In this document: piece by piece, positions 6,451 to 33,855 of the stretch
How the letters are laid out: every line of letters starts with the position of its first letter
Position numbering within the stretch: the first letter of the stretch is position 1
Origin: Fibrobacteria bacterium
Lineage (GTDB): Bacteria > Fibrobacterota > Fibrobacteria > UBA11236
DNA: 64,000 nt
Assembly: GCA_025360005.1 (NCBI GenBank)
Contig: JANYDA010000006.1
Location: 1-64,000 of the forward strand
Direction of reading: 5' to 3'
Position numbers and translations under genes: made by a program
Notes under the pieces: model-generated
What the model was told of the DNA's origin: nothing
The model's database searches: none
Seen by the model: the letters and a program-made list of their open reading frames with translations, nothing else

Positions 6451-6469
6451 GGGAAGAGTATTCTTTTGC

Positions 6470-6496
6470 AAATTGAAAATCGCAATTTTCAATTTT
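6470..6496. repeat. AT-only perfect hairpin after nadB
   Basis: AAATTGAAAAT and ATTTTCAATTT form an 11-bp perfect stem around the loop CGCA, 20 bp after the nadB stop. The stem contains no G+C beyond one pair and is not followed by a long T run. It could be a weak terminator. It could also belong to the A-rich intergenic sequences seen elsewhere in the window. Confidence 0.5.
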
Positions 6497-6522
6497 CCGT
6501 GTCCCCGGATTGACCCCGAGGT

Positions 6523-8724: not shown

Positions 8725-8725
8725 C

Positions 8726-8750
8726 TGCCCATGCGGGCATTATTCCTTCT
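8726..8750 (+). terminator. Possible weak intrinsic terminator after the vWA gene
   Basis: TGCCC-ATGC-GGGCA forms a 5-bp stem two bases after the vWA gene stop, followed by TTATTCCTTCTT. The stem is short, so this is a weak call. It would separate the vWA gene from the dcw cluster. Confidence 0.4.
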
Positions 8751-8935
8751 TAGTATCTTGCCTGCGCTCTCCAAATAACCGTTCCCCGCTTCTCTTTTTC
8801 GCTTTGGTTAAGTCCATGATTTAATGGTCGTTACCTTTTCAAACAAGACAAACCGACCCACGTTTGAACCGCGCCAATACAGCTTTTTGAGACTCAGGGG
8901 AGGATTTTTTTCCTTGATGATTTCTTGTTTATTTA

Positions 8936-8970
8936 GGGGTAATTATGGTAGATTTTGGGTAAAATTGGTT
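8936..8970 (+). promoter_or_regulatory. MraZ box array (four 10-bp-spaced GG-T repeats)
   Basis: GGGGT (8936-8940), TGGTA (8946-8950), TGGGT (8956-8960) and TGGTT (8966-8970) recur at exactly 10-bp steps directly in front of the mraZ ATG at 8975. Known MraZ operators are TGGG-type repeats with about 10-bp periodicity upstream of mraZ. The array reaches into the position of the ribosome binding site, since mraZ lacks a clear Shine-Dalgarno. MraZ bound here could therefore block both transcription and initiation. The promoter position itself is uncertain. Confidence 0.6.
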
Positions 8971-8974
8971 AACA

Positions 8975-9436
8975 ATGGCTGATGCAAAGAACACAATCAA
9001 ATTAGAGTCCTTCATCGGAAAGGCAACGGTGGCGATGGACGCCACCGGTCGCACGAATTTCCCCAAGGACTTCCGCAAGATCCTGAAAGAGGAAGCGGGG
9101 GGCCAAGTGGTAGTGACGATGGCGGAAGGCCGGACCTTGGCGCTCTACCCGGTATACGAATGGAACAACTACATCCAATATCTGGAGAGTCTGGGTCGCG
9201 GCGCCGAAGTCTCCAAGTTCCGTACGCGCATCACGTCCATGGCCAAGCTTTCCTTACTGGACGGGCAGAACCGCATTTCGCTGACCTCCGAACAGATGAG
9301 CTATGCCGGCATTTCCGGCGAAGTGACTTTCGTGGGTGATGGAAAGCGGGTGCGCCTGTGGGCCCCGGAGAAATTCGCGCAGCAGATCGAAGTGATCTCT
9401 CCTGACGAGGAAAAGCAATTCGAGAACTGGTTCTGA
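8975..9436 (+). CDS. mraZ: Transcriptional regulator MraZ
   Basis: 153 residues containing two AbrB-like swapped-hairpin MraZ repeats (AMDATGRTNFPKDFR at about 22-36 and LLDGQNRISLTSEQM at about 90-104). MraZ is a ring-shaped DNA-binding protein that represses its own dcw operon. It is the first gene of the cluster, as in most bacteria, and is preceded by the repeat array described separately. Its stop shares one base with the rsmH start (TGATG), indicating translational coupling. Confidence 0.93.
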   Translation: MADAKNTIKLESFIGKATVAMDATGRTNFPKDFRKILKEEAGGQVVVTMAEGRTLALYPVYEWNNYIQYLESLGRGAEVSKFRTRITSMAKLSLLDGQNRISLTSEQMSYAGISGEVTFVGDGKRVRLWAPEKFAQQIEVISPDEEKQFENWF

Positions 9437-10410
9437 TGGGCAAGCAGGCCCCGCGCCGCAAGCCGGCGATTTCACGTGGACCGCGGGCCGACCACGGTTA
9501 CCACTTGCCGGTGATGGCGGATGAGATTGTCGAGCAGATGGTGACGGATCCTCATGGGCTGTACCTGGATGCCACCATGGGAGGCGGCGGGCACTCCGCC
9601 CGGATCCTGGAAAAGTTGGGGCCGCATGGCGGCCTGCTGGGTTTGGACAGGGACATGGAAGCAGTGGCCAGAAACCAGGCGACATTCGCGAACGACCCCA
9701 GGGTGCGGATTCAGCGCGCGGAATTTTCCCGGCTGGCGGAATTCTGCGCGCCCGAAAGCCTGGCCGGAGCGCTATTCGATCTGGGCGTGAGTTCCCGGCA
9801 GTTGGATGCCAAGGAGCGCGGCTTCTCCTTCACTCCCGGCACCGCGCTCGATATGCGCATGGGTCCCGAGGGGCCCGCCGCCGCCGATCTGATTTCCGGT
9901 TGGGACGAATATGCGCTTGCCACCGTGCTGCGCCGCAATGCGGACGTAGTGGAAGCCAAACGCCTGGCGCGCAACATCCTGGCCGCCGTGGAACGGGGCG
10001 ACGGGCTGAACAGCGATTTGATCCGCAAGGCCGTGGAAAAACTTCCGGGAATCCGCGACGATAATCGCAATTCCCTGCTGGCGCGGGTGTTCCAGGCCAT
10101 CCGTATGGAAGTGAACGACGAGATGGGACAGGTGGAAAAGGGACTGCGGGCCGCCGTCGTCCGCTTGCGCAAGGGCGGACGCCTATGCGTGCTCAGTTAC
10201 CATTCCGTGGAAGACCGTATGGTCAAGGAGACGCTGGCCGAGTTCGAGAAGGAATGCATCTGCGCCCAGAACCTGCCCGTGTGCACGTGCGGGAGCAACC
10301 ATCGCAGGTTGCGCAAGGTGCTGCGCAAGCCCGGCTTACCCACGGATGCGGAGCGGGACCGGAATCCGCGCGCGCGGAGCGCCAAGCTCCGGGTGATGGA
10401 GAAGGTATGA
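9436..10410 (+). CDS. rsmH: 16S rRNA (cytosine(1402)-N(4))-methyltransferase RsmH
   Basis: 324 residues, standard size. It has HLPVMADEIV at the N-terminus, the SAM-binding motif LDATMGGGGHS (about 40-50), LGLDRD, LFDLGVSSRQLD and the later LSYHSVEDRMVK. The enzyme methylates the exocyclic amine of C1402 in the ribosomal P site and is the usual second dcw gene (mraW). The basic N-terminal stretch KQAPRRKPAISRGPR is slightly longer than average. It overlaps both mraZ and ftsL by a few bases. Confidence 0.96.
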   Translation: MGKQAPRRKPAISRGPRADHGYHLPVMADEIVEQMVTDPHGLYLDATMGGGGHSARILEKLGPHGGLLGLDRDMEAVARNQATFANDPRVRIQRAEFSRLAEFCAPESLAGALFDLGVSSRQLDAKERGFSFTPGTALDMRMGPEGPAAADLISGWDEYALATVLRRNADVVEAKRLARNILAAVERGDGLNSDLIRKAVEKLPGIRDDNRNSLLARVFQAIRMEVNDEMGQVEKGLRAAVVRLRKGGRLCVLSYHSVEDRMVKETLAEFEKECICAQNLPVCTCGSNHRRLRKVLRKPGLPTDAERDRNPRARSAKLRVMEKV

Positions 10411-10844
10411 AGGGCCTCAAGCTGCGTACGGTGGTGGGGCTGTTCTGCTTGGTGCTGTGCCTGGCCGGCATTTTGGTGGCGCACGTGTGGAAGCAGAACG
10501 CCTATGTCCGGCTTTCCATGTCCACCGTCAGGATAGGCAAGCAGACGGTGCAGCTGCAGAATGACATTGCCTTGCTGGAGATAGCCGTGGGCGGGCTCAA
10601 GAAACTTTCCCGCATCGAGGCCATGGCCAAAGGCCGGTTTGGATTGGAATACGGGAATGCACCCGTGCTGGTTTACCTGGAAAGCGATGCCGCCGGCAAC
10701 GATGCCGGAGCCGCCAGGGCCGATCTTGCCTCCGCGGCGGTGGGGGGTTCAGAGACGGTGGCCCAGGCGGGGTCGATTGTCAAGGACGCGGATGCCAAGG
10801 GACTGGAAGCGGGGAAGGGCGCATGGCGAATAAAAGGATTCTGA
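10407..10844 (+). CDS. ftsL: Cell division protein FtsL-like
   Basis: 145 residues. The ATG at 10407 overlaps the rsmH stop as ATGA and has GGAGAAGG just upstream, so I prefer it to any longer frame inside rsmH. A short basic cytoplasmic start (MKGLKLR) is followed by one membrane helix (about 8-25, VVGLFCLVLCLAGILVAHV) and a periplasmic coiled-coil-like segment (IGKQTVQLQNDIALLEIAVGGLKKL). This is the FtsL topology. The C-terminal 60 residues are Ala/Gly/Asp-rich and probably disordered. Sequence conservation is low in FtsL, so position in the cluster carries much of the call. Confidence 0.85.
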   Translation: MKGLKLRTVVGLFCLVLCLAGILVAHVWKQNAYVRLSMSTVRIGKQTVQLQNDIALLEIAVGGLKKLSRIEAMAKGRFGLEYGNAPVLVYLESDAAGNDAGAARADLASAAVGGSETVAQAGSIVKDADAKGLEAGKGAWRIKGF

Positions 10845-12775
10845 CCCTTGGCTTCCTGCTGGCGATCGCCTGGTTAGGGATGCTTGCGCGCGTGGCCTGG
10901 GTACAGGTGGTGAAGTCCGGCTACTACCAGGAGATGGCTTCCAGCCAAAGCATCCGCCGCAATGTGGTGGCGCCCAAACGCGGGGAGATCCTCGATCGGG
11001 ATTTGCAGAAGCTGGTGGTGAACGCGGACATCGAGCTGGAGTCCGGCGCTTTCGCCGATGCGAAAGGGAACGTCACCGGCGCGCGCATGCGCAGGCTGAG
11101 CCGCGTTTGCCCGCAAGGGTTCCTGGCCGGGCAGGTGCTGGGCACGGTGGGCAAGGACGGTTACGGCCAATTGGGCCTGGAATATTTCCTGGACAAGGAA
11201 TTACGGGGGACCGACGGCTGGAAATACCTGCGCCATGACGTGAAGAACCATTATTATCCCGGCTTTGAAGAACGCCAGAAGGAAGCCGTCAACGGCGCCA
11301 ACGTGGTGTTGACGCTGGATTCCAAGCTGCAGGAAATCGTGGAACACGCGTTGGAGCGGGGAGTGCAGAAATCGGGGGCCAAGCAGGGCGTGGCCATCAT
11401 CGTCGATCCCTATACCGGGGACATCCTTTCGATGGCGAATTATCCCTTCTATAATCCCAATACCCGCGACGGCGAGGACAAGGACGCTTGGAAGAACGAG
11501 GCCGTGGTCAAGGTTTATGAGCCCGGCTCCACCTTCAAGATCATCACCAGCACTGCCTTGCTGGAAGAGAAGCTCATCAAACCGACCGACACTTTGGACG
11601 GCGAGAACGGGCAGTACAAGATTTCCGGCCAGATCATCCGCGACACGCATGCGCGCGGACGGATCAGCTTCACGGATGCGCTGGCCTATTCCAGCAATAT
11701 CTGTTTCGCCAAAGCTTCGACGCGGCTCAAGCCGGAGACCTTCTATAAGTACATCCGCTCTTTTGGCTTCGGGATGAAAAGCGGGGTGGGGCTGCCGGCG
11801 GAGGAAAGCGGGGTGCTTAAGGCCGTGGGCGAGTGGAGCGGGCGGACCCAGGCAACCATCGCATTCGGGCATGAGATCTCCACAACGCCTTTGCAGGTGG
11901 TGATGGCCGCCGCCGCCATTGCCAACGGCGGGATGCTGATGAAGCCGCGCATAGTCAAGGCCTTCGCGGACAATGAGGGCCGCGTGATCCAGGAATTACC
12001 GCCCCGCAGCGTGCGCAGGGTGATGTCCGAAGCCACCGCCGATCAGGTGAAGGTCATGATGGCGGCCGTAGTGCAATACGGAACGGCCAGCGACATCAAA
12101 AGCGATCGCATCGCCTTGGCCGGCAAAACGGGGACCGCGGAGAAAATCGACGCCGGAACAGGCAAATACGTGCATGGCCTTTTCAACTCCTCCTTCCTGG
12201 GCATGGCACCGGTGGACAGGCCGGAGTTCGTCTGCCTGGTGCTGTTGGACGAGCCTTCCATGCTGAAATACGGAGGCCAGAGCGCGGCCCCGATCTTCCG
12301 GGAGATAGTGGATCGCGTTTTGGCCAACCCCGACTACCCCTTGGCCCGCCGCGCCATGAAGCCGCTGGAAGTGGCAGCCGAGCCCATGGCCGTTCCGGAT
12401 GCCCCTGGTTTCACCTTGGCGGATGCCAAGCAGACCATGTCCGGTTCCGCCAGTAACGTGCATGCTACCCATTCCGCAGCAAGCGCTAAGGGACGCGGCG
12501 CGCGAAATGCGGGGAACGCGCCCCCGGCCCTGGCGGGTAAGCCGGCAGCCTATGCCGCCTCCGATTCCATGGTTCCTACCCAATCGGCTCCGGATGCGCG
12601 CATCATGCCCGACCTCAATAACTACACGCTGCGCGACGCCTTGTTCCGCCTCAAGAACCTTGGTCTGGACGTGGAGTATACGGGCACAGGACGCATTATC
12701 CGCCAGGAACCGGCGGTTGGAACTCCCGTGAAGCCCGGCCGGAAATGCACGCTCACTTTGGGATGGATGGGCTGA
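10823..12775 (+). CDS. ftsI: Septal peptidoglycan transpeptidase FtsI/PBP3 with C-terminal PASTA domain
   Basis: 650 residues. An N-terminal membrane anchor (about 5-20) leads to the class B PBP dimerisation region (RGEILDRDLQKLVV). The transpeptidase domain has all three motifs: SxxK at Ser236 (EPGSTFKI), SSN and AGKTGTA. After an Ala/Pro/Ser-rich linker comes a single PASTA domain (about 590-648, MPDLNNYTLRDALFRLKNLG ending CTLTLGW). PASTA-tailed PBPs are typical of SpoVD/PBP2x-like proteins and are less usual in Gram-negatives. The gene overlaps ftsL by 22 bp and the murE start follows one base after its stop. Confidence 0.95.
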   Translation: MANKRILTLGFLLAIAWLGMLARVAWVQVVKSGYYQEMASSQSIRRNVVAPKRGEILDRDLQKLVVNADIELESGAFADAKGNVTGARMRRLSRVCPQGFLAGQVLGTVGKDGYGQLGLEYFLDKELRGTDGWKYLRHDVKNHYYPGFEERQKEAVNGANVVLTLDSKLQEIVEHALERGVQKSGAKQGVAIIVDPYTGDILSMANYPFYNPNTRDGEDKDAWKNEAVVKVYEPGSTFKIITSTALLEEKLIKPTDTLDGENGQYKISGQIIRDTHARGRISFTDALAYSSNICFAKASTRLKPETFYKYIRSFGFGMKSGVGLPAEESGVLKAVGEWSGRTQATIAFGHEISTTPLQVVMAAAAIANGGMLMKPRIVKAFADNEGRVIQELPPRSVRRVMSEATADQVKVMMAAVVQYGTASDIKSDRIALAGKTGTAEKIDAGTGKYVHGLFNSSFLGMAPVDRPEFVCLVLLDEPSMLKYGGQSAAPIFREIVDRVLANPDYPLARRAMKPLEVAAEPMAVPDAPGFTLADAKQTMSGSASNVHATHSAASAKGRGARNAGNAPPALAGKPAAYAASDSMVPTQSAPDARIMPDLNNYTLRDALFRLKNLGLDVEYTGTGRIIRQEPAVGTPVKPGRKCTLTLGWMG

Positions 12776-12776
12776 T

Positions 12777-14324
12777 ATGAAGTTGTCCGCATTGATCCGA
12801 GAGGCGGGCCTGGGTTTGCTTGCCAATTCCGATCCGGAACTGACGGGCGTCCGCATCGATTCCCGCAAAGTGGAAAAGGGCAATCTCTTCCTGGCCTTGA
12901 AGGGCGCCCATGACGACGGCTCCCGCTACGTGGCCGATGTGATCGCCCGCGGGGCCGCCGCAGTGCTCTCGGAGGGCAATTCCCATCCGGCCCTGGAAGG
13001 CGCCACCGAGCCTCATCCGGGCGCCGAAATCATCCCTTGCCCCGGCTTGCGCAAGCATGTCGGCGATTTGTTCAACGCCTGGTACGGCCGTCCCGCCGAG
13101 AGTATGGAAACGGTTGCCGTGACCGGGACCAACGGCAAATCCTCGATCACCAAGTTGGTTTCCGGGATCCTCACGGCTGCGGGCCGCAGGGTGATTTCCC
13201 TGGGCACCATCAGCTATGATATCGACGGCGAGGCGTTGCCTTCCAACCTGACCACTCCCGGCCCGGACGAGTTCTTCCATATGCTGCGCCTGGGCGCGGA
13301 CAAGCAATGCACGGCGCTGTCGATGGAGGTCTCTTCCCATGCGCTCAGCCAGGATCGCGTGCGCGGCGTGCTCTTCTCGCGCGCCATCTTCACCAACCTC
13401 ACCCGCGACCATATGGATTACCATCGCGACTTCGAGGACTATTACCAGGCCAAGAAGCGCTTGTTCACCTCTTACCTTCGCCCCGGCGGGATAGCGATCC
13501 TGAACCTGGATTCGGACCACGGAGTCCGCCTGAACCGGGAGTTGGCTTGCCAAAAGCTGACTTTTTCCCGCGGAGAGGATGCCGGCATCGGGAATTCCCC
13601 GGCTAGAGGGAAAGATCCCCAAAGCGCATCGGTTGCGGACGTGGTCCTGGCCGGGAGCCGGCTTAGCCTCAACGGAACCTGGTTCCAGGTAGCTTTCCGC
13701 GGAGTCCCCTTCGCTTTCACCTCCAAATTGGTTGGCGCCATCAACCTGGAAAACCTGCTGGCCGCGGTGACCCTGGGTTTTTCCATGGGCTTCGACGCCG
13801 GAACCATCGACCAGGGTATCAAAGACGTTACCGTAACGGGGCGGAATCAGGTTTTCCCCTTGACCGGGAAGCGGTTCGCCGTGGTCGACTACGCGCATAC
13901 CCCGGACGCGCTGGAGCGCGTGCTCATGAGCCTGCGCCCGTTGACCAAGGGGCGGTTGGTTTGCCTATTCGGTTGCGGCGGCGATCGCGATCGCACCAAG
14001 CGGCCCATCATGGGCGGGATTGCGGCGGAACGCGCAGACAAGGCTTTCCTCACCAGCGATAATCCCCGCAACGAGGATCCCCGGGCCATCCTGGCGGAAG
14101 TCGCAGCCGGGATCCGCGAGCGGGCCAAAGTGTCCATCGTACCCGATCGGCGCGAGGCCATCCGCTTGGCCTTGGAGTCATTGGACGAGAATGACTGTCT
14201 GCTGATCGCGGGCAAGGGCCATGAGGATTACCAGATCATCGGTAAGGAAAAAAAGCATTTCAGCGATCAGGAAGAGATCCTGGCGTGGGCGGCGGGAAAG
14301 GGAAGGGAAGGGCGTGGAGCTTAA
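12777..14324 (+). CDS. murE: UDP-MurNAc-tripeptide synthetase MurE (meso-diaminopimelate type)
   Basis: 515 residues with the Mur ligase three-domain layout: N-terminal UDP-binding domain (VRIDSRKVEKGNLFLALKG), central ATPase with P-loop VTGTNGKSS, the MEVSSHAL and TRDHMDYH motifs, and a C-terminal ligase domain. The substrate motif DNPRNEDP is the DNPR form that marks meso-diaminopimelate rather than lysine addition, so the wall should be DAP-type. The enzyme acts in the cytoplasm on UDP-MurNAc-L-Ala-D-Glu. The 3' end overlaps the murF start by 11 bp. Confidence 0.96.
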   Translation: MKLSALIREAGLGLLANSDPELTGVRIDSRKVEKGNLFLALKGAHDDGSRYVADVIARGAAAVLSEGNSHPALEGATEPHPGAEIIPCPGLRKHVGDLFNAWYGRPAESMETVAVTGTNGKSSITKLVSGILTAAGRRVISLGTISYDIDGEALPSNLTTPGPDEFFHMLRLGADKQCTALSMEVSSHALSQDRVRGVLFSRAIFTNLTRDHMDYHRDFEDYYQAKKRLFTSYLRPGGIAILNLDSDHGVRLNRELACQKLTFSRGEDAGIGNSPARGKDPQSASVADVVLAGSRLSLNGTWFQVAFRGVPFAFTSKLVGAINLENLLAAVTLGFSMGFDAGTIDQGIKDVTVTGRNQVFPLTGKRFAVVDYAHTPDALERVLMSLRPLTKGRLVCLFGCGGDRDRTKRPIMGGIAAERADKAFLTSDNPRNEDPRAILAEVAAGIRERAKVSIVPDRREAIRLALESLDENDCLLIAGKGHEDYQIIGKEKKHFSDQEEILAWAAGKGREGRGA

Positions 14325-22670: not shown

Positions 22671-23834
22671 ATGTCCTTCCCCATCCAACTCTACGTCCAC
22701 GTCCCTTTCTGCGAAAAGAAATGCCACTATTGCGATTTCGCCAGTTGGGAATTGCCCGCCGTGCAACAACGCCGGTGGACGGAGATCATCCTGAAGGAGA
22801 TTGCCGTGCGCGCTCCGCTGGCGCAGGGCCGTCCCGTGGACACGGTCTTTTTCGGGGGCGGCACGCCGTCCTTGCTGGCCACGGAGTTCCTGGAACGTAT
22901 CCTGGCGGAAATCCGATCCTTGTACGATTTGTCACGCTTGCGGGAGATGTCCATCGAGTGCAATCCCAGCAGCCTCAAGAAGGAAAAGCTGGATCTCTAT
23001 CATCGCCTGGGCTTCACGCGCATGAGCATCGGCATCCAGAGCTTCCATGCGGACGAACTGATCCGCCTGGGCCGCGTGCACACTCCCCAGGCCGCGCGCC
23101 TGGCCTTGGAAACCTTGGCCGCGGACGGGCGGTTCCAGTTCAGCGGGGATTTGATTTTCGGCGTACCGGGACAAACGGAAAAGTCATTCTTGGCCAGCCT
23201 GGAAATCCTGATAGCATTGGGTCCTGACCATGTTTCCTTTTACGGGCTTACCATCGAGGACGGCACCGAGTTCGCCAGGCAACAGGCCTCCGGCGTGCTG
23301 ATCATGCCGGAAGACGGCATATACAATGTCATGTACACGGCCGGCGTGGCCATGCTGCGGCGGCACGGGTACCATCGTTACGAGGTTTCCAATTTCTGCA
23401 AGCCGGGAAAACCCAGCTTGCATAACCAGGGATATTGGAACGGCGTGGAATACCTGGCATTCGGGCCGGGCGCGCATAGCTTGTACGCGGGCAAGCGCAC
23501 CGTCAGCCCCAGGTCATTCGAGGGTTATCTGGACTGGGGCGTCGGCGGATTCGCCCCGGCCGCCTGCACGGAAGAGATCCTGAGCGCGGACAACCTGGTT
23601 TCCGAGGCCGTATTGTTGGGTCTGCGCCAATCGGACGGCGTGCACCTGGGGCGGTTGCGGGAAATGGGTTTCACGTTGCCGGAGGACGTTTTGGGCAAGT
23701 GGGAAAAGGTGGGGATGCTGTCTCGGGACGGGGGCGCCATCCGTCTCATCGACGAGGGCTGGCTTTTCCTGGACGAGATCGGTTCCGATTTACTGGCGCG
23801 TGGCAAAGCCGCGCCCGTGGAGGTGTTCAGATGA
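22671..23834 (+). CDS. hemW: HemW-type radical SAM protein (heme chaperone)
   Basis: 387 residues from the ATG at 22671 (MSFPIQLYVHVPFC). The cluster motif CEKKCHYCDF has Phe at the position where true coproporphyrinogen dehydrogenase HemN has an extra Cys, which indicates HemW. Other family motifs are FFGGGTPSLL, ECNPSS, RMSIGIQSF and the C-terminal HemN_C-like region (LGLRQSDGV). HemW proteins bind heme and pass it to respiratory targets rather than oxidising coproporphyrinogen. The stop overlaps the next gene as ATGA. Confidence 0.9.
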   Translation: MSFPIQLYVHVPFCEKKCHYCDFASWELPAVQQRRWTEIILKEIAVRAPLAQGRPVDTVFFGGGTPSLLATEFLERILAEIRSLYDLSRLREMSIECNPSSLKKEKLDLYHRLGFTRMSIGIQSFHADELIRLGRVHTPQAARLALETLAADGRFQFSGDLIFGVPGQTEKSFLASLEILIALGPDHVSFYGLTIEDGTEFARQQASGVLIMPEDGIYNVMYTAGVAMLRRHGYHRYEVSNFCKPGKPSLHNQGYWNGVEYLAFGPGAHSLYAGKRTVSPRSFEGYLDWGVGGFAPAACTEEILSADNLVSEAVLLGLRQSDGVHLGRLREMGFTLPEDVLGKWEKVGMLSRDGGAIRLIDEGWLFLDEIGSDLLARGKAAPVEVFR

Positions 23835-26467
23835 TGATACGGACATTGCTTGCCGGCATTCTTGCGATGCTTTGCCTGTCGGCCCGGGCCGATACCGGCG
23901 CCTCGCTGCATGGCTCTATGATCTGGCATCCCACCGCTGCCGCCAAATCCGTGGGCTTCCGGAAGCGCTTCACGCTTCCAGCTAACCCGGCCCCGGCCAC
24001 CCTCCACATCTTCGCCGACGCGCGCTATATGCTGTGGATCAATGGGACCTACGTCCTGCGGGGGCCCAACCGTTTCGATCCCAAGCGTCCTGAATACGAC
24101 TCCCTGATCGTGACCCCATATCTCAAGGCAGGGGACAACATCATCGAGGTCCTGGTCTACGGACACGTCAGCAACGGCAAAACCATGGAGCATGGCCCGG
24201 GGCTCTCCCTGAGGCTGGAGGGCAACGGAGCTCCCTTGGTGACCGACGCGACGTGGCGGGCCAGCGACAAGACCCGCTTCCGGCCCCCCATTGTGAGCTG
24301 GGGCGATATCGGGGACCGGGTGGACGCCACCTTCGAGGACGGAGACTGGCTGCAGGAGGGTTATGACGATTCGCAGTGGAGCGCCGCGGTCCCCGTCTCC
24401 GGCGACAATTGGGGAGCCTTCCATACGCGCCTCACCCCGCTGCTGCGCGGCAAGGAAATCCCCTTCACCATAACCGGCAAGACCCTGCCTTTCGAGGTCA
24501 CGGGGCCGGCCACGGTCACCCTCAATCTCCAGCGGAACGCCATGGTGTATTGCGTCCTGGACTTCGACGCGGACAAGGGAAGCCGGCTCACGATCCGGAA
24601 CCTGCACCAATATACGGCCCGGGCCGGACGCCAGACCTATGTCACCTTCGACTCCTTTGGATCGGGAGACCTGGGTAACGTGAACACGGTCTCGCTCACC
24701 ATCCAGGTGGATGTCGGCCGGGTCAAATTCTACGGCATCAAGGTGGTGAACCTGGTCTATCCCTTCGACATCAAGGCTTCCTTCGCCAGCAGCGACGCCA
24801 TGCTCAACCGGTTCTGGGACGTTATGACCTATGGGAACGCCCAGTTGAGCGAGGACGGATACGTGGACTGTCCCTGGGAACGGGCGGAATGGATGGGGGG
24901 CATGGACCACGTCTACGATATCACCCGGACCACCTATGCGGGGCCGGGCGCGGACGGAAAACCCGTCTACGGGGATTCCCGCCTGATGGGCAAGATGCTG
25001 ATGGACATCGGCCAGAGCCAGTTCCCGGACGGGCGGGTCAAGGCGCACCATCCCTCGGATCGCTACGACAAGCATGGATACATCGAGGATTATTCCTGCG
25101 TGTGGATATGGGACATCAAGCAGCACTACGACGTCACCGGGGACAAGGCCTTCCTTTCCGAGCTCTGGCCGGTGGTGAAAAAGCAGATCAAGCTGTTCCA
25201 GGACAGCATCAAGGCCAATGGACTCATCAACGCGCGCGATTTCTTCATCTTCGACAACCCTTATGCCTACCAGATCTGCCAGGGCGCCACCCTCAACGCC
25301 TTCCTGTACAAGGCCCTGCGGGCCGCGGCGGAAATGGCGGCGGTCATGGGCGAGCCCGCCACTGCGGACGCCTATAACGCGACCGCTGACAAACTGGGGA
25401 ACGCATTCAACACCCTTCTCTGGGATGGCGCTTCCGGAACCTTTCTGGGCAAGGTGGGTGGCGCCGCGACCCTCCACGCGGCCGTGACCGCCCTGTACAG
25501 CGGAGTCTGTTCCCAGGCGCATCTGATCACGACCCGGAAATGGCTGCTGGGCGCGGATACCAAGGGAATCGCCTATCCCTGGATTTACAACTACTGGTTC
25601 CGGGCGCTTTACGACATGGATACGGAAGCCGCGGATCAGCAGGTGTTGACCACAATACGCACCCAGTTCAACAATACCTGGAACGCGAACAATCCCGGCT
25701 TCGTGCCTTCGGAGGCCAACAACGGGGGTCGGAACTTCCATACCTACGGGGCCGTGCCCGCCTACTTTTTCGGCGCTTACATGCTGGGGGTGAAGGCGGA
25801 ACTTCCCCTAACCTCGAAAGCCGTCCGCATCGAGCCGCGCCTGGGCGATCTGCAGAAAGCTTCCGGCACCGTGGTCACGGAGTTCGGGACGGTCGACGTT
25901 TCCTGGAACCGTTCCAGCAAGGATACCACCCTGGATTTTTCCTTCACCATCCCGGAAGGGACCATCGGGCGCGTTTCCGTTCCCATGGGAATTCCGAATG
26001 CGACGGTGGTGATGGACAACGTCCTCTGGATCTTGAAGGGCAAGGCCGTCAGAACGGGGGTTTCCATCGTTTCCCGCTTCGCCTATTTCGACACGGTAGC
26101 CGGAGGATCCCATAACGGGCGCGTGCAGCCGCCCTCTATGTCCGTCGGCATTGGGAGCGTCAAGAGAACCGGCTTACCGGTCCCGGGAGGATTCTTCTTC
26201 AATGAGATCGAGGTGCCGGCAGGCGGGAGTGCGATTCCGATCCGGTTCTCGCTCGCTTCCGGTTCCGAGCGCGTCCGGCTGATCATCATGGACGCCCGCG
26301 GCCGCTTGGTGCGGACCCTGGCCGACGGGAATTGGAAGCCCGGAGAGCATACGGTTCCATTCGATCGGCTCGATGCCGGGGGCAAGCCGGTTCCCCGGGG
26401 CAGGTACCTGTGCCACGCCTCCGCAAAGGACTTCAGCGCGTCGGCGGAATTCACGATCGGGAACTGA
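23831..26467 (+). CDS. Secreted GH78-like alpha-L-rhamnosidase with FlgD-like C-terminal domain
   Basis: 878 residues. A signal peptide (MMIRTLLAGILAMLCLSARA) leads to N-terminal beta-sandwich domains resembling the rhamnosidase N region (LHIFADARYMLWINGTYV, PYLKAGDNIIEVLVYGH). The central (alpha/alpha)6 catalytic domain has CPWERAEWMGGMD, which matches the GH78 CPxRxExxGWxGD signature. A C-terminal concave domain follows. The last 75 residues (VRLIIMDARGRLVRTL, PRGRYLCH) form a FlgD-like immunoglobulin fold, common on secreted Fibrobacterota enzymes. It probably removes rhamnose from plant polysaccharides outside the cell. Exact specificity cannot be told. Its start overlaps the hemW stop, although the functions look unrelated. 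Confidence 0.8.
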   Translation: MMIRTLLAGILAMLCLSARADTGASLHGSMIWHPTAAAKSVGFRKRFTLPANPAPATLHIFADARYMLWINGTYVLRGPNRFDPKRPEYDSLIVTPYLKAGDNIIEVLVYGHVSNGKTMEHGPGLSLRLEGNGAPLVTDATWRASDKTRFRPPIVSWGDIGDRVDATFEDGDWLQEGYDDSQWSAAVPVSGDNWGAFHTRLTPLLRGKEIPFTITGKTLPFEVTGPATVTLNLQRNAMVYCVLDFDADKGSRLTIRNLHQYTARAGRQTYVTFDSFGSGDLGNVNTVSLTIQVDVGRVKFYGIKVVNLVYPFDIKASFASSDAMLNRFWDVMTYGNAQLSEDGYVDCPWERAEWMGGMDHVYDITRTTYAGPGADGKPVYGDSRLMGKMLMDIGQSQFPDGRVKAHHPSDRYDKHGYIEDYSCVWIWDIKQHYDVTGDKAFLSELWPVVKKQIKLFQDSIKANGLINARDFFIFDNPYAYQICQGATLNAFLYKALRAAAEMAAVMGEPATADAYNATADKLGNAFNTLLWDGASGTFLGKVGGAATLHAAVTALYSGVCSQAHLITTRKWLLGADTKGIAYPWIYNYWFRALYDMDTEAADQQVLTTIRTQFNNTWNANNPGFVPSEANNGGRNFHTYGAVPAYFFGAYMLGVKAELPLTSKAVRIEPRLGDLQKASGTVVTEFGTVDVSWNRSSKDTTLDFSFTIPEGTIGRVSVPMGIPNATVVMDNVLWILKGKAVRTGVSIVSRFAYFDTVAGGSHNGRVQPPSMSVGIGSVKRTGLPVPGGFFFNEIEVPAGGSAIPIRFSLASGSERVRLIIMDARGRLVRTLADGNWKPGEHTVPFDRLDAGGKPVPRGRYLCHASAKDFSASAEFTIGN

Positions 26468-27348: not shown

Positions 27349-28551
27349 ATGGGAACCAAACCGCAAACCCCTTTTCCGGATCGCATGATCTTCCATGTGG
27401 ACATGGATGCGTTCTACGCTTCCGTGGAGCAGTTGGAGAATCCCACCCTGCGGGGCAAGCCCGTGATCGTGGGCGGAGTGGATTCCCTGCGCGGCGTGGT
27501 TTCCTCCGCATCCTACGAAGCGCGCGTATTCGGCGTGCATTCGGCCATGCCCGTCCAGCAAGCCCGGCGTCGGTGCCCGCACGGCATCTATGTCCCGGGA
27601 CGCCATGCCGTTTACGGGGAATACTCCCGCCGCCTGATGGATGTGCTTTCCGAGTTTTCGCCTGTGCTGGAGCAGGTCTCCGTGGACGAGGCCTTCCTGG
27701 ACATGACGGGTACGGAAGGCCTGTTCGGGCAGGCGGCGGAATCCGGCCGCGGGCTGAAGGCCGCCATCAGAAACCGCCTGGGCCTCACGGCTTCCGTGGG
27801 CGTGGCGAAAAACAAGTTCCTGGCCAAGCTGGCATCGGATGCCATGAAGCCGGACGGAATGGTGGTGGTGGAGCCGGCGGCGACGCAAACCTTCCTCGAT
27901 CCCATGCCGGTGGGCCGCTTGTGGGGCGTGGGCAAAAAGACGGTGCTGGAGCTGCATCGCGTAGGGCTTTACTCCATTGCCCAATTGCGCGGGCAATCGT
28001 TGGAAATCTTGGCCGGGAATTTCGGCGATAACTTCGCGGAGCATCTCTACGCGCTGGCCCGGGGCGAGGACGATCGGGACGTCGTGACCGAAACAGAGGA
28101 AAAAAGCATCTCCCATGAGCGGACCTTCGAGACCGATAGTTCCGACGCGGATTCCTTGACGGCCGTCTTGCTGGATCTCTCGGAGCGCGTGGCCAGGCGC
28201 GCCCGCAAGGACGGTTACTCCGGACGTACGGTAACCTTCGTGTGGCGTAACCCGGATTTTACCCGCCAGTCGCATGCGCGTTCGCTTGCGGAGCCCACCA
28301 ATTCCAGTCAAACCATCTACGCGTCCGCCATCGCTCTTTTCCGGGAAGTAGCCAAGCCGCGCGCAGGCCGCAAGTTCCGCCTCATCGGCGTCAGGCTTTC
28401 CAATTTCTCACAGGACCCGCAACAACAGTCCCTTTTCCAAATCCCCAAAAGCGCATCCAACCTGGACGCGGCCATGGACGCCGTGCGCGATAAATTCGGG
28501 GAAAGCTCCATCCGCCGCGCCCGCCTGGCGGATTCCGAAGCGGAAGACTAG
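27349..28551 (+). CDS. dinB: DNA polymerase IV (Y-family)
   Basis: 400 residues, slightly longer than E. coli DinB. Catalytic motifs are FHVDMDAFYASVEQ (about 13-26), the fingers segment SYEARVFGVHSAMP, and SVDEAFLDMTG with the catalytic acidic pair. A helix-hairpin-helix region (WGVGKKTVLELHRVG) and a little-finger domain follow. The polymerase carries out error-prone bypass of lesions. The tail (DPQQQSLF) may carry a beta-clamp-binding motif of QxxLF type. An alternative ATG at 27385 (MIFHVDMDAFY) would give the more usual N-terminus. Confidence 0.93.
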   Translation: MGTKPQTPFPDRMIFHVDMDAFYASVEQLENPTLRGKPVIVGGVDSLRGVVSSASYEARVFGVHSAMPVQQARRRCPHGIYVPGRHAVYGEYSRRLMDVLSEFSPVLEQVSVDEAFLDMTGTEGLFGQAAESGRGLKAAIRNRLGLTASVGVAKNKFLAKLASDAMKPDGMVVVEPAATQTFLDPMPVGRLWGVGKKTVLELHRVGLYSIAQLRGQSLEILAGNFGDNFAEHLYALARGEDDRDVVTETEEKSISHERTFETDSSDADSLTAVLLDLSERVARRARKDGYSGRTVTFVWRNPDFTRQSHARSLAEPTNSSQTIYASAIALFREVAKPRAGRKFRLIGVRLSNFSQDPQQQSLFQIPKSASNLDAAMDAVRDKFGESSIRRARLADSEAED

Positions 28552-28765: not shown

Positions 28766-30100
28766 ATGAAAACGGAAACCATGGCAGGCAGGCCGGTAGC
28801 GGTCAAGAGCTCGGGCGGATTGATGGGTAACGCGAAGTGGATGGCCCTGGCCGCCGCCGTGCTGGGATGGATGTTCGACGGTCTGGAAATGGGGATTTTC
28901 CCCCTTGTCGGGCGGCCCGCGCTGACGGAGATGCTGGGCGGGGCGGATATCGGTCCCTGGTTCGGCCGCATCATCGCCGTGTTTCTGGTCGGCGCCGCGT
29001 TCGGCGGTTTCGCTCTGGGATGGCTGGGCGATCGCATCGGCCGCACCCGCGCCATGGTCTGGAGCGTGCTGGCTTACTCGGTGTTTTCCGGACTCGGAGC
29101 CATCGTCACCGCGCCTTGGCAACTGGCCGTGTTCCGTTTTCTGGCGGCCCTCGGCATGGGCGGCCAATGGGCGCTGGGCGTGGCCCTGGTCATGGAAATC
29201 TTCCCGAACAGATCCCGTCCTCTCATGGCCGGCGTCATCGGCGCCTCCGCCAACATCGGCTTCCTCCTGATCGCCCTGCTGGCCATCGGCCTCAACTCCT
29301 TCCTAGCGAGCCTGTCGACCGTGCTGCACGCCGTGCTTCCCAACTCCCTGGCCACCGTGCTGCTGCAGAACGGTAGCTGGCGCTTGCTGATGATCCTCAG
29401 CGCCTTCCCTGCCTTGCTTACCTTCCTCATCCGCGTTTTTGTTCCCGAATCGGAGATGTGGGAAGCCAACTCCAAGAAAGCCGACGCCAAGGTCGGCATC
29501 GCCGACCTGTTCAAGAACGGCTTGGCCAAGCACACCTTGTTGGGCGCGGCGCTAGGCGCAGTGGCCTTGATGGGCACCTGGGCATCGGTGCAGTGGATTC
29601 CCGCCTGGGCCGGCAAGCTCGCGGCCGGCATCCCCAACGTGGCCGCCAAGGTGCAAATCGCCTCGGCCGTGGGCGCCATTTGCTTCAGCTTGGGTTTCGG
29701 TTTGATCGCCGAGAAGTTCAACCGCCGCAGCGCGTATTTCACCTTGTCCCTGCTGTCCCTGGTCTCCTGCGCCGTCCTTTTCCGCCTGGACATGCATTAC
29801 GGCATCGGCTTCCTGTTCTGGACCTTCTTCGTAGGCGGTATTACCGCCGGCTTCTACGGCTTGCTGCCCTTGTACCTGCCCGAGCTGTTCCCGACGCGGG
29901 TGCGCGCCATGGGTTCCGGCGTCACCTTCAACGCCGGCCGCATGATCGCCGCCGGCGGCGCCATCTACGGCGGGGCCATGGTCAAGTCCTTCGGCGGCGA
30001 TATCGCACGCATGTGTTCCATCGTCAGCCTGGTCTATGTCCTGGGCCTGGTGCTCATCTGGTTCGCGCCGGAAACCAAGGGTAAACCTCTGCCGGATTGA
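28766..30100 (+). CDS. MFS transporter, sugar/organic-acid type
   Basis: 444 residues from the ATG at 28766, preceded by AAAGG with six-base spacing. About twelve membrane helices are visible. Family signatures are GWMFDGLEMGIFPL in helix 1, the loop 2-3 motif GWLGDRIGRTRAM and, late in the protein, PLYLPELFPTRVRAMGSG, which matches the sugar-porter/AAHS-type PELFPTRVR signature. The substrate is unknown. The next gene downstream encodes a D-apionate-lactonase-like protein, so a sugar-acid or lactone substrate is possible, but a strong terminator lies between the two. Confidence 0.85.
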   Translation: MKTETMAGRPVAVKSSGGLMGNAKWMALAAAVLGWMFDGLEMGIFPLVGRPALTEMLGGADIGPWFGRIIAVFLVGAAFGGFALGWLGDRIGRTRAMVWSVLAYSVFSGLGAIVTAPWQLAVFRFLAALGMGGQWALGVALVMEIFPNRSRPLMAGVIGASANIGFLLIALLAIGLNSFLASLSTVLHAVLPNSLATVLLQNGSWRLLMILSAFPALLTFLIRVFVPESEMWEANSKKADAKVGIADLFKNGLAKHTLLGAALGAVALMGTWASVQWIPAWAGKLAAGIPNVAAKVQIASAVGAICFSLGFGLIAEKFNRRSAYFTLSLLSLVSCAVLFRLDMHYGIGFLFWTFFVGGITAGFYGLLPLYLPELFPTRVRAMGSGVTFNAGRMIAAGGAIYGGAMVKSFGGDIARMCSIVSLVYVLGLVLIWFAPETKGKPLPD

Positions 30101-30143
30101 TAGCCTGAGGGCCGTTGCGTCCTTTCCCGCCATTACCTTCTCC

Positions 30144-30180
30144 AGGGCCGGCTTCCAGCCGGCCCTTTCTATTTTAATTT
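30144..30180 (+). terminator. Strong rho-independent terminator after the MFS gene
   Basis: AGGGCCGGCT-TCC-AGCCGGCCCT is a perfect 10-bp stem with a 3-base loop, followed by TTCTATTTTAATTTT. It lies 44 bp after the MFS stop and 66 bp before the next gene. Confidence 0.9.
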
Positions 30181-30245
30181 TACCTACCGACGTTATTTCA
30201 TTTCCCGGGCTTTCCCTCCCGAGGACAAACCGGAGAACCGATCCC

Positions 30246-32243
30246 ATGGCTTCGCTTTCCATCCCCGCGCTGCGTTGCGGCGGCCCCAATAACCTTCCCT
30301 TCTCGCGGACGCTCCGGTCCGGACCCTTCAGTCTGCTCTTTGAGCAAGGCGAATTGCGCCGCATACGCCTGGGCGATCGCGAAGTCATACGGCGCATCTA
30401 CCTGACCGTGCGCGGTCCGGATTGGGGCACGATACCGGGTATCCTGTCCGACCTGAAAGCGGACGTAGCCGACGATCATTTTTCCCTGTCCTTCCTCCTG
30501 GGCTATAAGCAAGGCGAAATCGATTTCAGCTGGCAGGTTGCCGTCACCGGCGGACCGGAAGGGAACATCCGCGTGGAGGCCAAAGGCCGCGCGGGCTCCG
30601 CGTTCGCCACCAACCGCGTTGGCATCTGCGTCCTGCATCCATTGCGCGAATGCGCGGGCATGCCCGCCCTGGTGCGCGGCATGGACGACGAAGCACGCGA
30701 AGGCCGTTTCCCCGATCTCATCAATCCCCAGCAGCCTTTCCTCGCCTTCAAGGAGGTGGCGCATGTGGTGGAGAAGGAGTGGCTGGGCTTGATCCGCCTG
30801 GAAGGGGAAACCTTCGAGATGGAAGATCAACGCAATTGGAGCGACGGTTCCTTCAAGACCTACTGTCCGCCCCAGGACCAGCCCAAGCCCCGCCGCATCG
30901 AGGCCGGATGGGAAACCGTCCTGTCCGCCACCCTGATGCTGCTGAACCCGGAATCCAAGCCGGTGGAAGAACTCATCGCGGCCCTGCCCGCCTCCGTTAC
31001 CGTACCCGGAATGTTACCCCAGACGGACGTGGGCAAACCGGTGCCGGGTTTCGGGTTCGGTTTGCCCAGCCACGGTATGCTCCCCGATCCCCGGGACGCG
31101 GCTCGCTTGAAGTCCCTGTCGCCGTTCCATCTGCGGGCGGATTTCCGGCTGGCGCAGCCCGGTTGGCGGGAAGAGTTGCGGCGCGCCGTGGCCCAGGCCG
31201 ACGCGCTTTCGCTGCCGTTGGAAGCGGCTTTGGTGGTGCCGGAAAATCCGGATGCCGCCTTGGCCGAGTTCGCGGCAGCCTGGGAGGCCGCAGGCGCGGA
31301 GGCGGTCCGTTGGCTGGTATTCTCCGAGACGGCGGATGCGCCCGGCGACGGTTTGATGCATGCCGCGCGCACCCACTTGGCCGGGTTGGATCCGCTCGCC
31401 ACTTTCGCGCGGGGATCGAAAGGCGATTTCGTACTCTTGAACCGGAACCGGCCCGGACCGCAACCGGGCATTTCCCTGGCCTACGGGATATCCCCGCAAG
31501 TGCACTTGACCGATAACCGCACCTTGGTCGAATCACTGGAAGGCCAGGCCTGGGGCCTCCGGACCGTAGCCTCGCTATGGCCCAGATCCAATGCCATCGC
31601 TACGCCGATCACGTTGAAGCGCAGCCCGCTCGCCATGGCCCTGAAAGGGCGCCCTTCGCCCGAGCCCGGTTCCCCGGTGGGGGGCAAATGGCGCAATCAG
31701 GTGGACACGCGGCAATTCTCCCTGTTCGGAGCCGGGTGGACCTTGGGCTCCCTGAAACGCATGGCCTTGGAAGGAGCCAACTCCGCTACCTATTATGAGA
31801 CCACCGGTTTGTTGGGAATCCTGGCGGGCGGCAACCTGTCTGCGGATTTGCTGCAATCGCCCGCGTTCGATTTCGCCGTCTCACCCGGCTGGGTCTATCC
31901 GCTATACCACGTCTTCGCCGATTTTGCGGAATTCGTAGGCGGGAATGCCTATGATGTCAAATCCGATCTGCCCCTGCGTTTCGACGGCGTGCTTTTGCAC
32001 GCGGGAAGCAAAGCCGCAATCCTGCTGGCCAATCTTGAGGAAACCGCCGGGCCCGTGCGCCTGCGGGAACTGGGGAACGTGGCCGGCATCCGGCGCTTGC
32101 ACGAAGGCAATGCGATAGCGGCGATGGAGGATCCGGAACACTACCGCGCTCTGCCCCTGGATGCGTGTTCCGGCGATGAGGACGGTTGGGAAATCACCAT
32201 GCAGCCGTTCGAATACATACGCATCGATCTGGCCGCGGGTTGA
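30246..32243 (+). CDS. apnL: D-apionate lactonase-like protein (ApnL family)
   Basis: 665 residues from the ATG at 30246. Characteristic segments of the apionate lactonase family are present: FEQGELRRIRLGDREVIRRI near the N-terminus, RGPDWGTIP, VGICVLHPLRECAG, FPDLINPQQPF and FEMEDQRNWSDGSFKTY. A TIM-barrel-like middle and a beta-rich C-terminus follow. ApnL converts D-apionolactone to D-apionate in apiose breakdown; apiose occurs in plant pectin (rhamnogalacturonan II). No signal peptide is seen, so it should be cytoplasmic. Family membership is recalled from sequence pattern and its true substrate is not proven. No other apiose gene is in the window. Confidence 0.7.
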   Translation: MASLSIPALRCGGPNNLPFSRTLRSGPFSLLFEQGELRRIRLGDREVIRRIYLTVRGPDWGTIPGILSDLKADVADDHFSLSFLLGYKQGEIDFSWQVAVTGGPEGNIRVEAKGRAGSAFATNRVGICVLHPLRECAGMPALVRGMDDEAREGRFPDLINPQQPFLAFKEVAHVVEKEWLGLIRLEGETFEMEDQRNWSDGSFKTYCPPQDQPKPRRIEAGWETVLSATLMLLNPESKPVEELIAALPASVTVPGMLPQTDVGKPVPGFGFGLPSHGMLPDPRDAARLKSLSPFHLRADFRLAQPGWREELRRAVAQADALSLPLEAALVVPENPDAALAEFAAAWEAAGAEAVRWLVFSETADAPGDGLMHAARTHLAGLDPLATFARGSKGDFVLLNRNRPGPQPGISLAYGISPQVHLTDNRTLVESLEGQAWGLRTVASLWPRSNAIATPITLKRSPLAMALKGRPSPEPGSPVGGKWRNQVDTRQFSLFGAGWTLGSLKRMALEGANSATYYETTGLLGILAGGNLSADLLQSPAFDFAVSPGWVYPLYHVFADFAEFVGGNAYDVKSDLPLRFDGVLLHAGSKAAILLANLEETAGPVRLRELGNVAGIRRLHEGNAIAAMEDPEHYRALPLDACSGDEDGWEITMQPFEYIRIDLAAG

Positions 32244-33087: not shown

Positions 33088-33855
33088 ATGGCTTTATATC
33101 GGGAAGAAACGGAGTTGGCCCTGCGCATGGCCGCGGAGGCGAAGCGGATCGTCTTGGGATATTTCCAGACCGGATTGCAAGTGGAAACCAAATCGGACAA
33201 CAGCCCGGTCACCATCGCCGATCGTAAATCGGAAGAGGCGCTGCGCGCCCTGATGGAAAAGCATACTCCCGGCTACGGCATCATCGGGGAGGAGTTCGGG
33301 ACCCAGGCGGGCCGGGCCGATCGGGAATGGGTCATCGATCCCATCGACGGCACCAAGGCCTTTATCCATGGCGTTCCCCTCTTCGGCACCCTATTGGCTT
33401 TGTTGGAAAACGGCAAACCGGTGGTGGGCGTTATCGCATTGCCCGCCCTGGGCCACGTCCTGCATGCGAGCCTGGGAGGCGGCGCATGGCTGGACGGAAA
33501 GCCGTGCCGGGTCTCCGGCGTCGACCGCATCGAGGACTCCTTGCTGTTGGACGGCAGCGCTTCCACCATGGAGAGATTGGGCCACGGCCCCGCTTGGACC
33601 GCTCTCCGCACGCGCGCCAAACTGCACCGGGGTTGGGGAGACTGTTACGGGCATTTCCTCGTGGCCGCCGGCCGGGCGGAAGCCATGGTCGATCCCATCG
33701 TATCGGTGTGGGACGTGGCACCCATGGCCATCATCCTGCCGGAAGCCGGAGGCAGATTCAGCGCGCTATCGGGCCGGGATGCGATTACCGAGAATTCGGG
33801 GGTGTCGAGCAATGGATTGGTACACGACGAGATCCTGCGCGGGCTGTCCGGGTAG
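33088..33855 (+). CDS. hisN: Histidinol-phosphatase, inositol monophosphatase family
   Basis: 255 residues from the ATG at 33088 with TAGGAGA upstream. The metal-binding motifs are GEEFG (about 70), DPIDGTKAFIHGVPLFGTLLAL (about 85-106) and SVWDVAPMAIILPEAGG near the C-terminus. The DPIDGTKxFIxGVPxxGTLxAL pattern fits the HisN subgroup (histidinol-phosphate to histidinol) better than classical SuhB or CysQ, although other sugar phosphates are possible. There are no his-operon genes nearby, so the function rests on subgroup resemblance. Confidence 0.75.
   Translation: MALYREETELALRMAAEAKRIVLGYFQTGLQVETKSDNSPVTIADRKSEEALRALMEKHTPGYGIIGEEFGTQAGRADREWVIDPIDGTKAFIHGVPLFGTLLALLENGKPVVGVIALPALGHVLHASLGGGAWLDGKPCRVSGVDRIEDSLLLDGSASTMERLGHGPAWTALRTRAKLHRGWGDCYGHFLVAAGRAEAMVDPIVSVWDVAPMAIILPEAGGRFSALSGRDAITENSGVSSNGLVHDEILRGLSG

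Follow-up and report, generated by a model that had tools for sequence, protein, structure and literature searches.

The locus examined here raises the question of whether a gene resembling that for D-apionate lactonase (ApnL) marks its bacterial host as a user of plant apiose. The gene lies in a 64,000-nucleotide stretch of the genome of a Fibrobacteria bacterium (contig JANYDA010000006.1, positions 1 to 64,000; this whole stretch is referred to as the window), encodes a protein of 665 amino acids (aa) and adjoins a gene for a transporter of the major facilitator superfamily (MFS). An initial annotation had assigned the protein to the ApnL family and, together with a rhamnosidase encoded upstream, tentatively linked it to the use of apiose and of pectin of the rhamnogalacturonan II (RG-II) type. 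Our analysis revealed that the protein is homologous to ApnL over its full length, retains the residues of the family core and has a predicted fold with structural matches, that its gene keeps its place and is under purifying selection within the genus, and that no match to apionate oxidoisomerase (ApnO) is present in any of the 21 genomes of the phylum Fibrobacterota carrying an ApnL relative. On the reading that we slightly favour, the protein belongs to the ApnL superfamily and acts in the cytoplasm as a hydrolase that opens a sugar-derived lactone, either in place of D-apionolactone or in addition to it. The reaction, lactone hydrolysis, would follow from family identity. The protein would belong to an orphan Fibrobacterota lineage, i.e. 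one that yielded no known apionate pathway and has these genes among apparent housekeeping genes.

Relationship of the 665-aa protein to ApnL

The open reading frame (ORF) coordinates of the MFS gene and the lactonase-like gene (Table 1) were verified, and both genes lie on the forward strand. The longest opening of the lactonase-like frame is at position 30036; the start common to the relatives is at 30246 (MASLSIPALRCG). The NCBIfam profile NF049900 (D-apionate lactonase) matched residues 21–605 (profile positions 15–591 of 595; E = 1.1e-60) and was the sole NCBIfam match at E ≤ 0.01, which bears out the proposed family membership at the level of homology. The score of 205.9 bits is well under the curated cut-off of 750 bits; the protein is therefore an ApnL homologue outside the curated NF049900 equivalog. 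No match was obtained in Pfam (E ≤ 0.001), nor among the sequences of the PDB, either with the protein (E ≤ 1) or with a family profile (E ≤ 10). No signal peptide was seen by eye.

Plasmid-encoded proteins located beside apiose-type genes scored 770 (L094), 835 (L100) and 1055 bits (L095) with the same profile, and three plasmid relatives in other contexts (L096–L098) scored 617–627 bits. Four proteins were used as ApnL references (three on both score and gene context, L099 on gene context alone). The window protein has 27–29% identity to these references and is homologous to ApnL (NF049900, EC 3.1.1.115) along its entire length, with the core motif and the invariant residues in common. It departs from the references at R297, E429 and E518 as well as at residues 208, 421 and 483, and no apiose genes are found near its gene.

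The segment initially quoted as distinctive of the family corresponds to residues 190–206 (FEMEDQRNWSDGSFKTY). Across 78 aligned sequences, the window protein among them, 10 of the 17 residues never vary and four more positions are at least 90% conserved. The 15 Fibrobacterota proteins from beyond the genus vary at only three of these 14 positions, 192, 202 and 205. The core of the family (residues 56, 60, 124, 191, 193, 194, 196–198, 200, 399, 420, 423, 487 and 489) is retained in all six genus members, all 15 other Fibrobacterota proteins, all four ApnL references and 77–79 of the 79 other relatives. In total, 44 positions are common to at least 90% of the 79 relatives, all six genus members and all seven plasmid proteins. 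A further 26 conserved positions differ in at least one genus member, four of them in all six; residues 208, 271, 421 and 483, at least 90% conserved in L015–L093, are different in every genus member.

Phylogenetic trees were built without constraint by a quick method, with SH-like approximate likelihood ratio (SH-aLRT) support only. The first (91 rows) was made without repeats of the genus proteins and without L093, and the second (97 rows) further lacked L036, L037, L045, L053, L060, L070, L079, L088 and L092 (of these, L092 is no close repeat). The starts of the rows were set by a script, and L131 was cut to its last 640 residues. A fully supported split set the seven plasmid proteins apart from the rest, and within the larger part of the tree the window genus formed a long branch. 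On the same side are the ApnL-like proteins of Chloroflexota, Acidobacteriota, Poribacteria, Verrucomicrobiota and other groups (L015–L093), to which the window protein has 31–40% identity. R297 and E518 distinguish this larger part, the genus included, from all seven plasmid proteins, which lack both; the 15 other Fibrobacterota relatives all have R297, and five of them have E518.

Apiose-pathway genes in the genus, the phylum and other groups

A passage of PMC11747546 gives the apiose cluster as a dehydrogenase, a lactonase, ApnO, OiaK and OiaX; Carter et al. 2018 is referred to in a passage of PMC6302742. OiaK (3-oxo-isoapionate kinase; NF042436), OiaX (a decarboxylase; NF042437) and ApnO (13-row profile) were each found in none of the six genomes of the genus, i.e. 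the window genome (G000) and five relatives; no search for OiaC, the alternative to OiaK, was made in these genomes. No gene cluster with apiose dehydrogenase, ApnO, OiaK, OiaX or OiaC is present at the genus loci. A literature search for apiose with Fibrobacter returned nothing.

Two other profiles gave matches in the genus. The apiosidase-like family PF13204 is present in three of the six genomes, with four matches in the window genome; it was rejected as a partner of the lactonase-like gene, which it does not track. An apiose-dehydrogenase-type profile gave its best genus match (243 bits) on another contig of the window genome and at most 97 bits in the five relatives, as against 426–600 bits in nine and 83 and 101 bits in two of 11 comparison genomes. 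In favour of the initial annotation, the window genome offers the four PF13204 matches and, at 243 bits, a dehydrogenase of intermediate score. This dehydrogenase (of the Gfo/Idh/MocA type), for which the five relatives offer nothing comparable, lies in a sugar-acid cluster (L109, positions 8258–13710 of its contig) that also encodes an MFS transporter (TIGR00893, 260 bits, under the cut-off), a kinase-like protein (57 bits to D-threonate kinase, a weak match), a cyclase-like hydrolase (recognised by eye) and a tartrate-dehydrogenase-like protein (474 bits, over the cut-off).

Examination of the phylum Fibrobacterota identified an ApnL relative in 21 of 167 genomes (six of the genus, 13 of family f7 and two of family f9), none of them over the NF049900 cut-off. 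ApnO was found in none of the 15 carriers outside the genus (same profile, with no control alongside) and hence in none of the 21. For OiaK, these 15 carriers gave only two partial matches, of 19 and 21 bits, compared with 486 and 522 bits in two control genomes. When the neighbours of the 15 ApnL-like genes were intercompared and read by eye, with no family scan, no shared sugar-catabolism gene was recognised. A recurrent short gene with a CxxC motif adjoins the ApnL-like gene in six f7 loci (L117, L118, L122, L123, L125 and L129), five of which also have a second small gene nearby.

The wider family was examined in the best 80 of 542 confirmed candidate loci, 50 of which (L015–L061, L073, L080 and L082) represent comparison genomes from other groups (L045 is named only "bacterium"). 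ApnO was detected at more than 270 bits in 22 of these 50 genomes, and OiaK at more than 390 bits in 16, all within the 22. Nine further genomes gave ApnO scores of only 26–34 bits, and in 11 further genomes OiaK matches were only weak or partial (26–48 bits). The apionate pathway therefore accompanies many members of the ApnL-like family in their genomes and is missing for many others.

The recurrent neighbours among the 80 loci were ApnO (15 loci), a Gfo-type dehydrogenase (14), OiaX (12), OiaK (11), a ribose-type permease (9) and an AP-endonuclease-type TIM barrel (9). The last fits OiaC, which we take to be a xylose-isomerase-like TIM barrel. A 2-hydroxyacid dehydrogenase occurs together with an HpaI-type aldolase in seven loci (L018, L019, L024, L037, L049, L052 and L069). 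This context looks like a second sugar-lactone route, perhaps proceeding via 2-keto acids and hydroxypyruvate. Many of the loci L015–L093 have either the ApnO, OiaK or OiaX context or the dehydrogenase–aldolase context, whereas the genus locus has neither. The counts depend on a simple ORF caller, which did not detect the central gene of L034 and of L073. One or more of the ten largest neighbour clusters occurred in 45 of the 80 loci (in four of the 45 only the unnamed cluster c0), and many of the remaining loci are short contigs. Each cluster was named from a single representative, and some clusters are mixed. On plasmids, the ApnL-like genes of L097 and L098 are located beside an annotated aldolase/citrate lyase and an NAD(P)-dependent oxidoreductase.

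The Verrucomicrobial genome G108 contains an apiose-type cluster (L110, positions 6164–11452) with a PF13204 apiosidase (379 bits), a Gfo dehydrogenase (516 bits), ApnO (377 bits), an OiaC-like TIM barrel and a sugar-binding protein. No ApnL relative was found in the 19.9 kb read around it (the rest of the genome was not searched for a second lactonase). The ApnL-like gene of G108 (L073) is on another contig, and its product is among the nearest neighbours of the genus in the free tree.

As the cluster and the ApnL-like gene of G108 are on separate contigs, a lone gene of this type may still serve apiose degradation. It is conceivable, if rather doubtful, that the window protein is in fact a genuine D-apionate lactonase that works in trans, with apionate degraded by enzymes outside the families tested. 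Full retention of the core would fit such a role, as would the four PF13204 matches and the 243-bit dehydrogenase with its MFS, tartrate-dehydrogenase-like and kinase-like neighbours, and a leucine at residue 421, characteristic of the genus, also occurs in L089, which lies beside ApnO. Against it stand the lack of ApnO in all 21 phylum carriers and of OiaK and OiaX in the genus, and the fact that neither the apiosidase nor the dehydrogenase tracks the lactonase-like gene.

Several observations weigh against our preferred reading, that of a lactone hydrolase not confined to D-apionolactone. Part of the window genome consists of N, so the absence of pathway genes in the genus rests mainly on the five relatives (a very long open frame listed in the window genome was dismissed as an artefact of this N sequence). 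For the phylum, the searches covered only ApnO and OiaK in the 21 carriers, and OiaX in the six of the genus. Moreover, 28 of the 50 comparison genomes are without strong ApnO, so that its absence is common in the family. Residue 421, next to the invariant H420, is L in all six genus members, T in 14 of the 15 other phylum members, and A in 74 of the 79 other relatives and all four ApnL references. It is A in all 22 ApnO-positive comparison genomes, yet also in 26 of the 28 others, and two proteins encoded beside ApnO depart from it (L089, with L; L072, with S). Residue 421 was thus weakened as a marker of lost apionate activity: the change appears to track phylum rather than pathway and is only suggestive, giving a slight hint as to substrate. 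Finally, the free trees group the genus with three Verrucomicrobia, apart from the other Fibrobacterota. A single Fibrobacterota lineage of ApnL-like genes is allowed, not shown, because constraining the 21 phylum rows together gave a log-likelihood 16.6 above that of the free tree (approximately unbiased test, p-AU 0.634).

The locus in the genus and its neighbours

All six genus genomes carry the lactonase-like gene at the same place, and it was found in none of the 55 other genomes of the same search. Where the contigs reach, the gene order is hemW, phosphoesterase, dinB, MFS, lactonase-like gene and inositol-monophosphatase-family gene (the names hemW and dinB are those we presume to apply). 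The dinB and phosphatase genes are present in six of six loci, the MFS gene in five of six, and the phosphoesterase and hemW genes in all five loci that reach them. The features of the window locus are presented in Table 1.

Table 1. Features of the lactonase-like locus and its surroundings (positions in the window).
Feature	Position	Strand	Remarks
Secreted GH78-like rhamnosidase	23831..26467	+	Start near 23831 from our own frame reading; at this place only in the window genome
dinB-type DNA polymerase gene	27349..28551	+	PF00817/PF11799; conserved upstream; truncated by contig end in L012
MFS transporter, 444 aa	28766..30100	+	PF07690/PF00083; TIGR00895 133.8 bits, under cut-off of 418.55
Terminator-like hairpin	30144..30166	+	10 pairs, T-rich tail; between MFS and lactonase-like gene
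Lactonase-like gene	30246..32243	+	ApnL-family protein, 665 aa; NF049900 match, conserved core, fold matches
Signature FEMEDQRNWSDGSFKTY	30813..30863	+	Residues 190–206; conservation in 78-sequence alignment
Inositol-monophosphatase-family gene	33088..33855	+	PF00459 163 bits; downstream neighbour in 6/6 genomes

The MFS transporter and the lactonase-like protein, whose genes are adjacent and on the same strand in five of the six genomes, might work as a dedicated pair, one importing and the other hydrolysing a single sugar acid or lactone. This proposal is compatible with the other readings; we consider it unlikely. The transporter is 80–91% identical to the window copy in four relatives. However, in G001, which has the lactonase-like gene, the transporter was not matched at E ≤ 1e-50, and no match to the window transporter (E ≤ 1e-5) was found in the non-genus loci among L014–L100, the range searched (L117–L131 lie outside it). 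The two genes are also separated by a terminator-like hairpin. A scan of 4.2 kb detected seven such sites, compared with 5.2 ± 2.6 in shuffled sequences, and the one between the two genes has the longest stem. Similar hairpins with T-rich tails are located at the same spot in G002 and G004; in G003 and G005 the intergenic gap folds otherwise, with no T-rich tail. The initially reported MFS neighbour is thus a conserved one, and because of the hairpins in three of the five genomes that have it (the window genome, G002 and G004), the pair need not form a single operon.

The upstream GH78-like rhamnosidase (glycoside hydrolase (GH) family 78) is real. It contains the domains PF17389 (74.3 bits), PF17390 and PF08531 with a C-terminal FlgD_ig domain, and ends 3.8 kb before the lactonase-like gene. 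No match to it was found in L009–L013, four of which hold both flanking genes (L012 does not reach this place). The linkage of the two genes in an RG-II or pectin locus, as initially suggested, was therefore rejected, since it is not conserved at the locus, and with OiaK, OiaX and ApnO missing from the genus the proposed use of apiose and RG-II pectin was not upheld.

Predicted structure, putative active site and selection

An AlphaFold2 model of the 665-aa protein, built with 78 sequences, had a mean predicted local distance difference test score (pLDDT) of 92.6 and a predicted template modelling score (pTM) of 0.93. It comprises (i) an N-terminal mutarotase-like beta-supersandwich (about residues 17–235) and (ii) a barrel with a C-terminal beta-sandwich (about residues 253–665). 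The N-terminal domain, modelled alone with a pLDDT of 88.1, resembles galactose mutarotases and what we take to be the C-terminal domain of LacZ (Z 13.7–15.1 among the 50 matches listed, at best over 204 residues with a root-mean-square deviation (rmsd) of 3.6). The folds are alike at 6–11% sequence identity, and the ApnL signature is located in this domain of the window protein. The best match of the second part is a GH79 beta-glucuronidase (Z 26.4, 369 residues, rmsd 3.7, 13% identity), and GH51 and GH30 structures are also matched. For the whole model, the best Foldseek E-value was obtained with GH97 (5xfm_B, 7.1e-13); this candidate was rejected in favour of the domain-level alignments, as the rmsd was near 20 over two domains and the TM score about 0.3.

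The residues kept in every group are those of the N-domain motif and those following barrel strands 5, 6 and 7 (N399, H420, D423, D487 and R489; our own strand count). An active site may thus be placed where the mutarotase-like domain meets the barrel, a position proposed from the model with no superposition. E191, E193, D194, R196, N197, W198, D200, K204 and Y206 would contribute from the N-domain side, and N399, H420, D423, D487 and R489 from the barrel side. Water would presumably be activated by a carboxylate or a histidine.

The resemblance of the barrel and C-terminal domain to GH79, GH51 and GH30 suggests that the protein could instead be a glycoside hydrolase of clan GH-A and not a lactonase, which we regard as improbable. 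Members of this clan carry their catalytic carboxylates where strands 4 and 7 end. All six genus members retain E518 as well as E361, which lies at the end of strand 4; in the other relatives a glutamate lies within residues 360–366 in 62 of 79 and E518 is present in 77 of 79. However, E518 falls on strand 8, not 7 (DSSP strand count, no superposition), is missing from the seven plasmid proteins and is not kept throughout the other phylum members. The strand-4 glutamate shifts in position (E361 in 20 and E363 in 51 of 79) and occurs in none of the four ApnL references. The carboxylate pair is thus not conserved across the ApnL-like family, in which the universally invariant residues are others, and no GH-A protein was matched in the PDB sequence search.

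The lactonase-like gene is under purifying selection in the genus. Its ratio of nonsynonymous to synonymous substitutions (dN/dS) against the five relatives is 0.14–0.24 (dS 0.95–2.26, partly saturated); the neighbours, also with high dS, gave 0.08–0.16 (MFS), 0.07–0.15 (dinB) and 0.09–0.14 (phosphatase). Of the four genes compared, it has diverged most: its identity to G001 is 45%, whereas that of dinB is 70.5% and that of the phosphatase 79%. The gene is nevertheless very unlikely to be a decayed or non-catalytic remnant, in view of its dN/dS ratios, the intact reading frame in all six genomes and the retained core.

Within the favoured reading of a lactone hydrolase acting on more than, or something other than, D-apionolactone, a more specific proposal can be made tentatively. 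Fibrobacterota might keep a vertically inherited, near-housekeeping hydrolase with the ApnL fold, in a non-catabolic or otherwise new role, e.g. the clearing or processing of an internally made sugar lactone.

ApnL homology alone would overcall RG-II or apiose degradation, because this lineage has the full ApnL core, yet no recognised ApnO, and the genus has no OiaK or OiaX. The ApnL-like family includes at least one further recurrent gene context. If the Fibrobacterota proteins do have a near-housekeeping role, outside the classical subfamily an ApnL-like gene would not mark its carrier as an apiose user.

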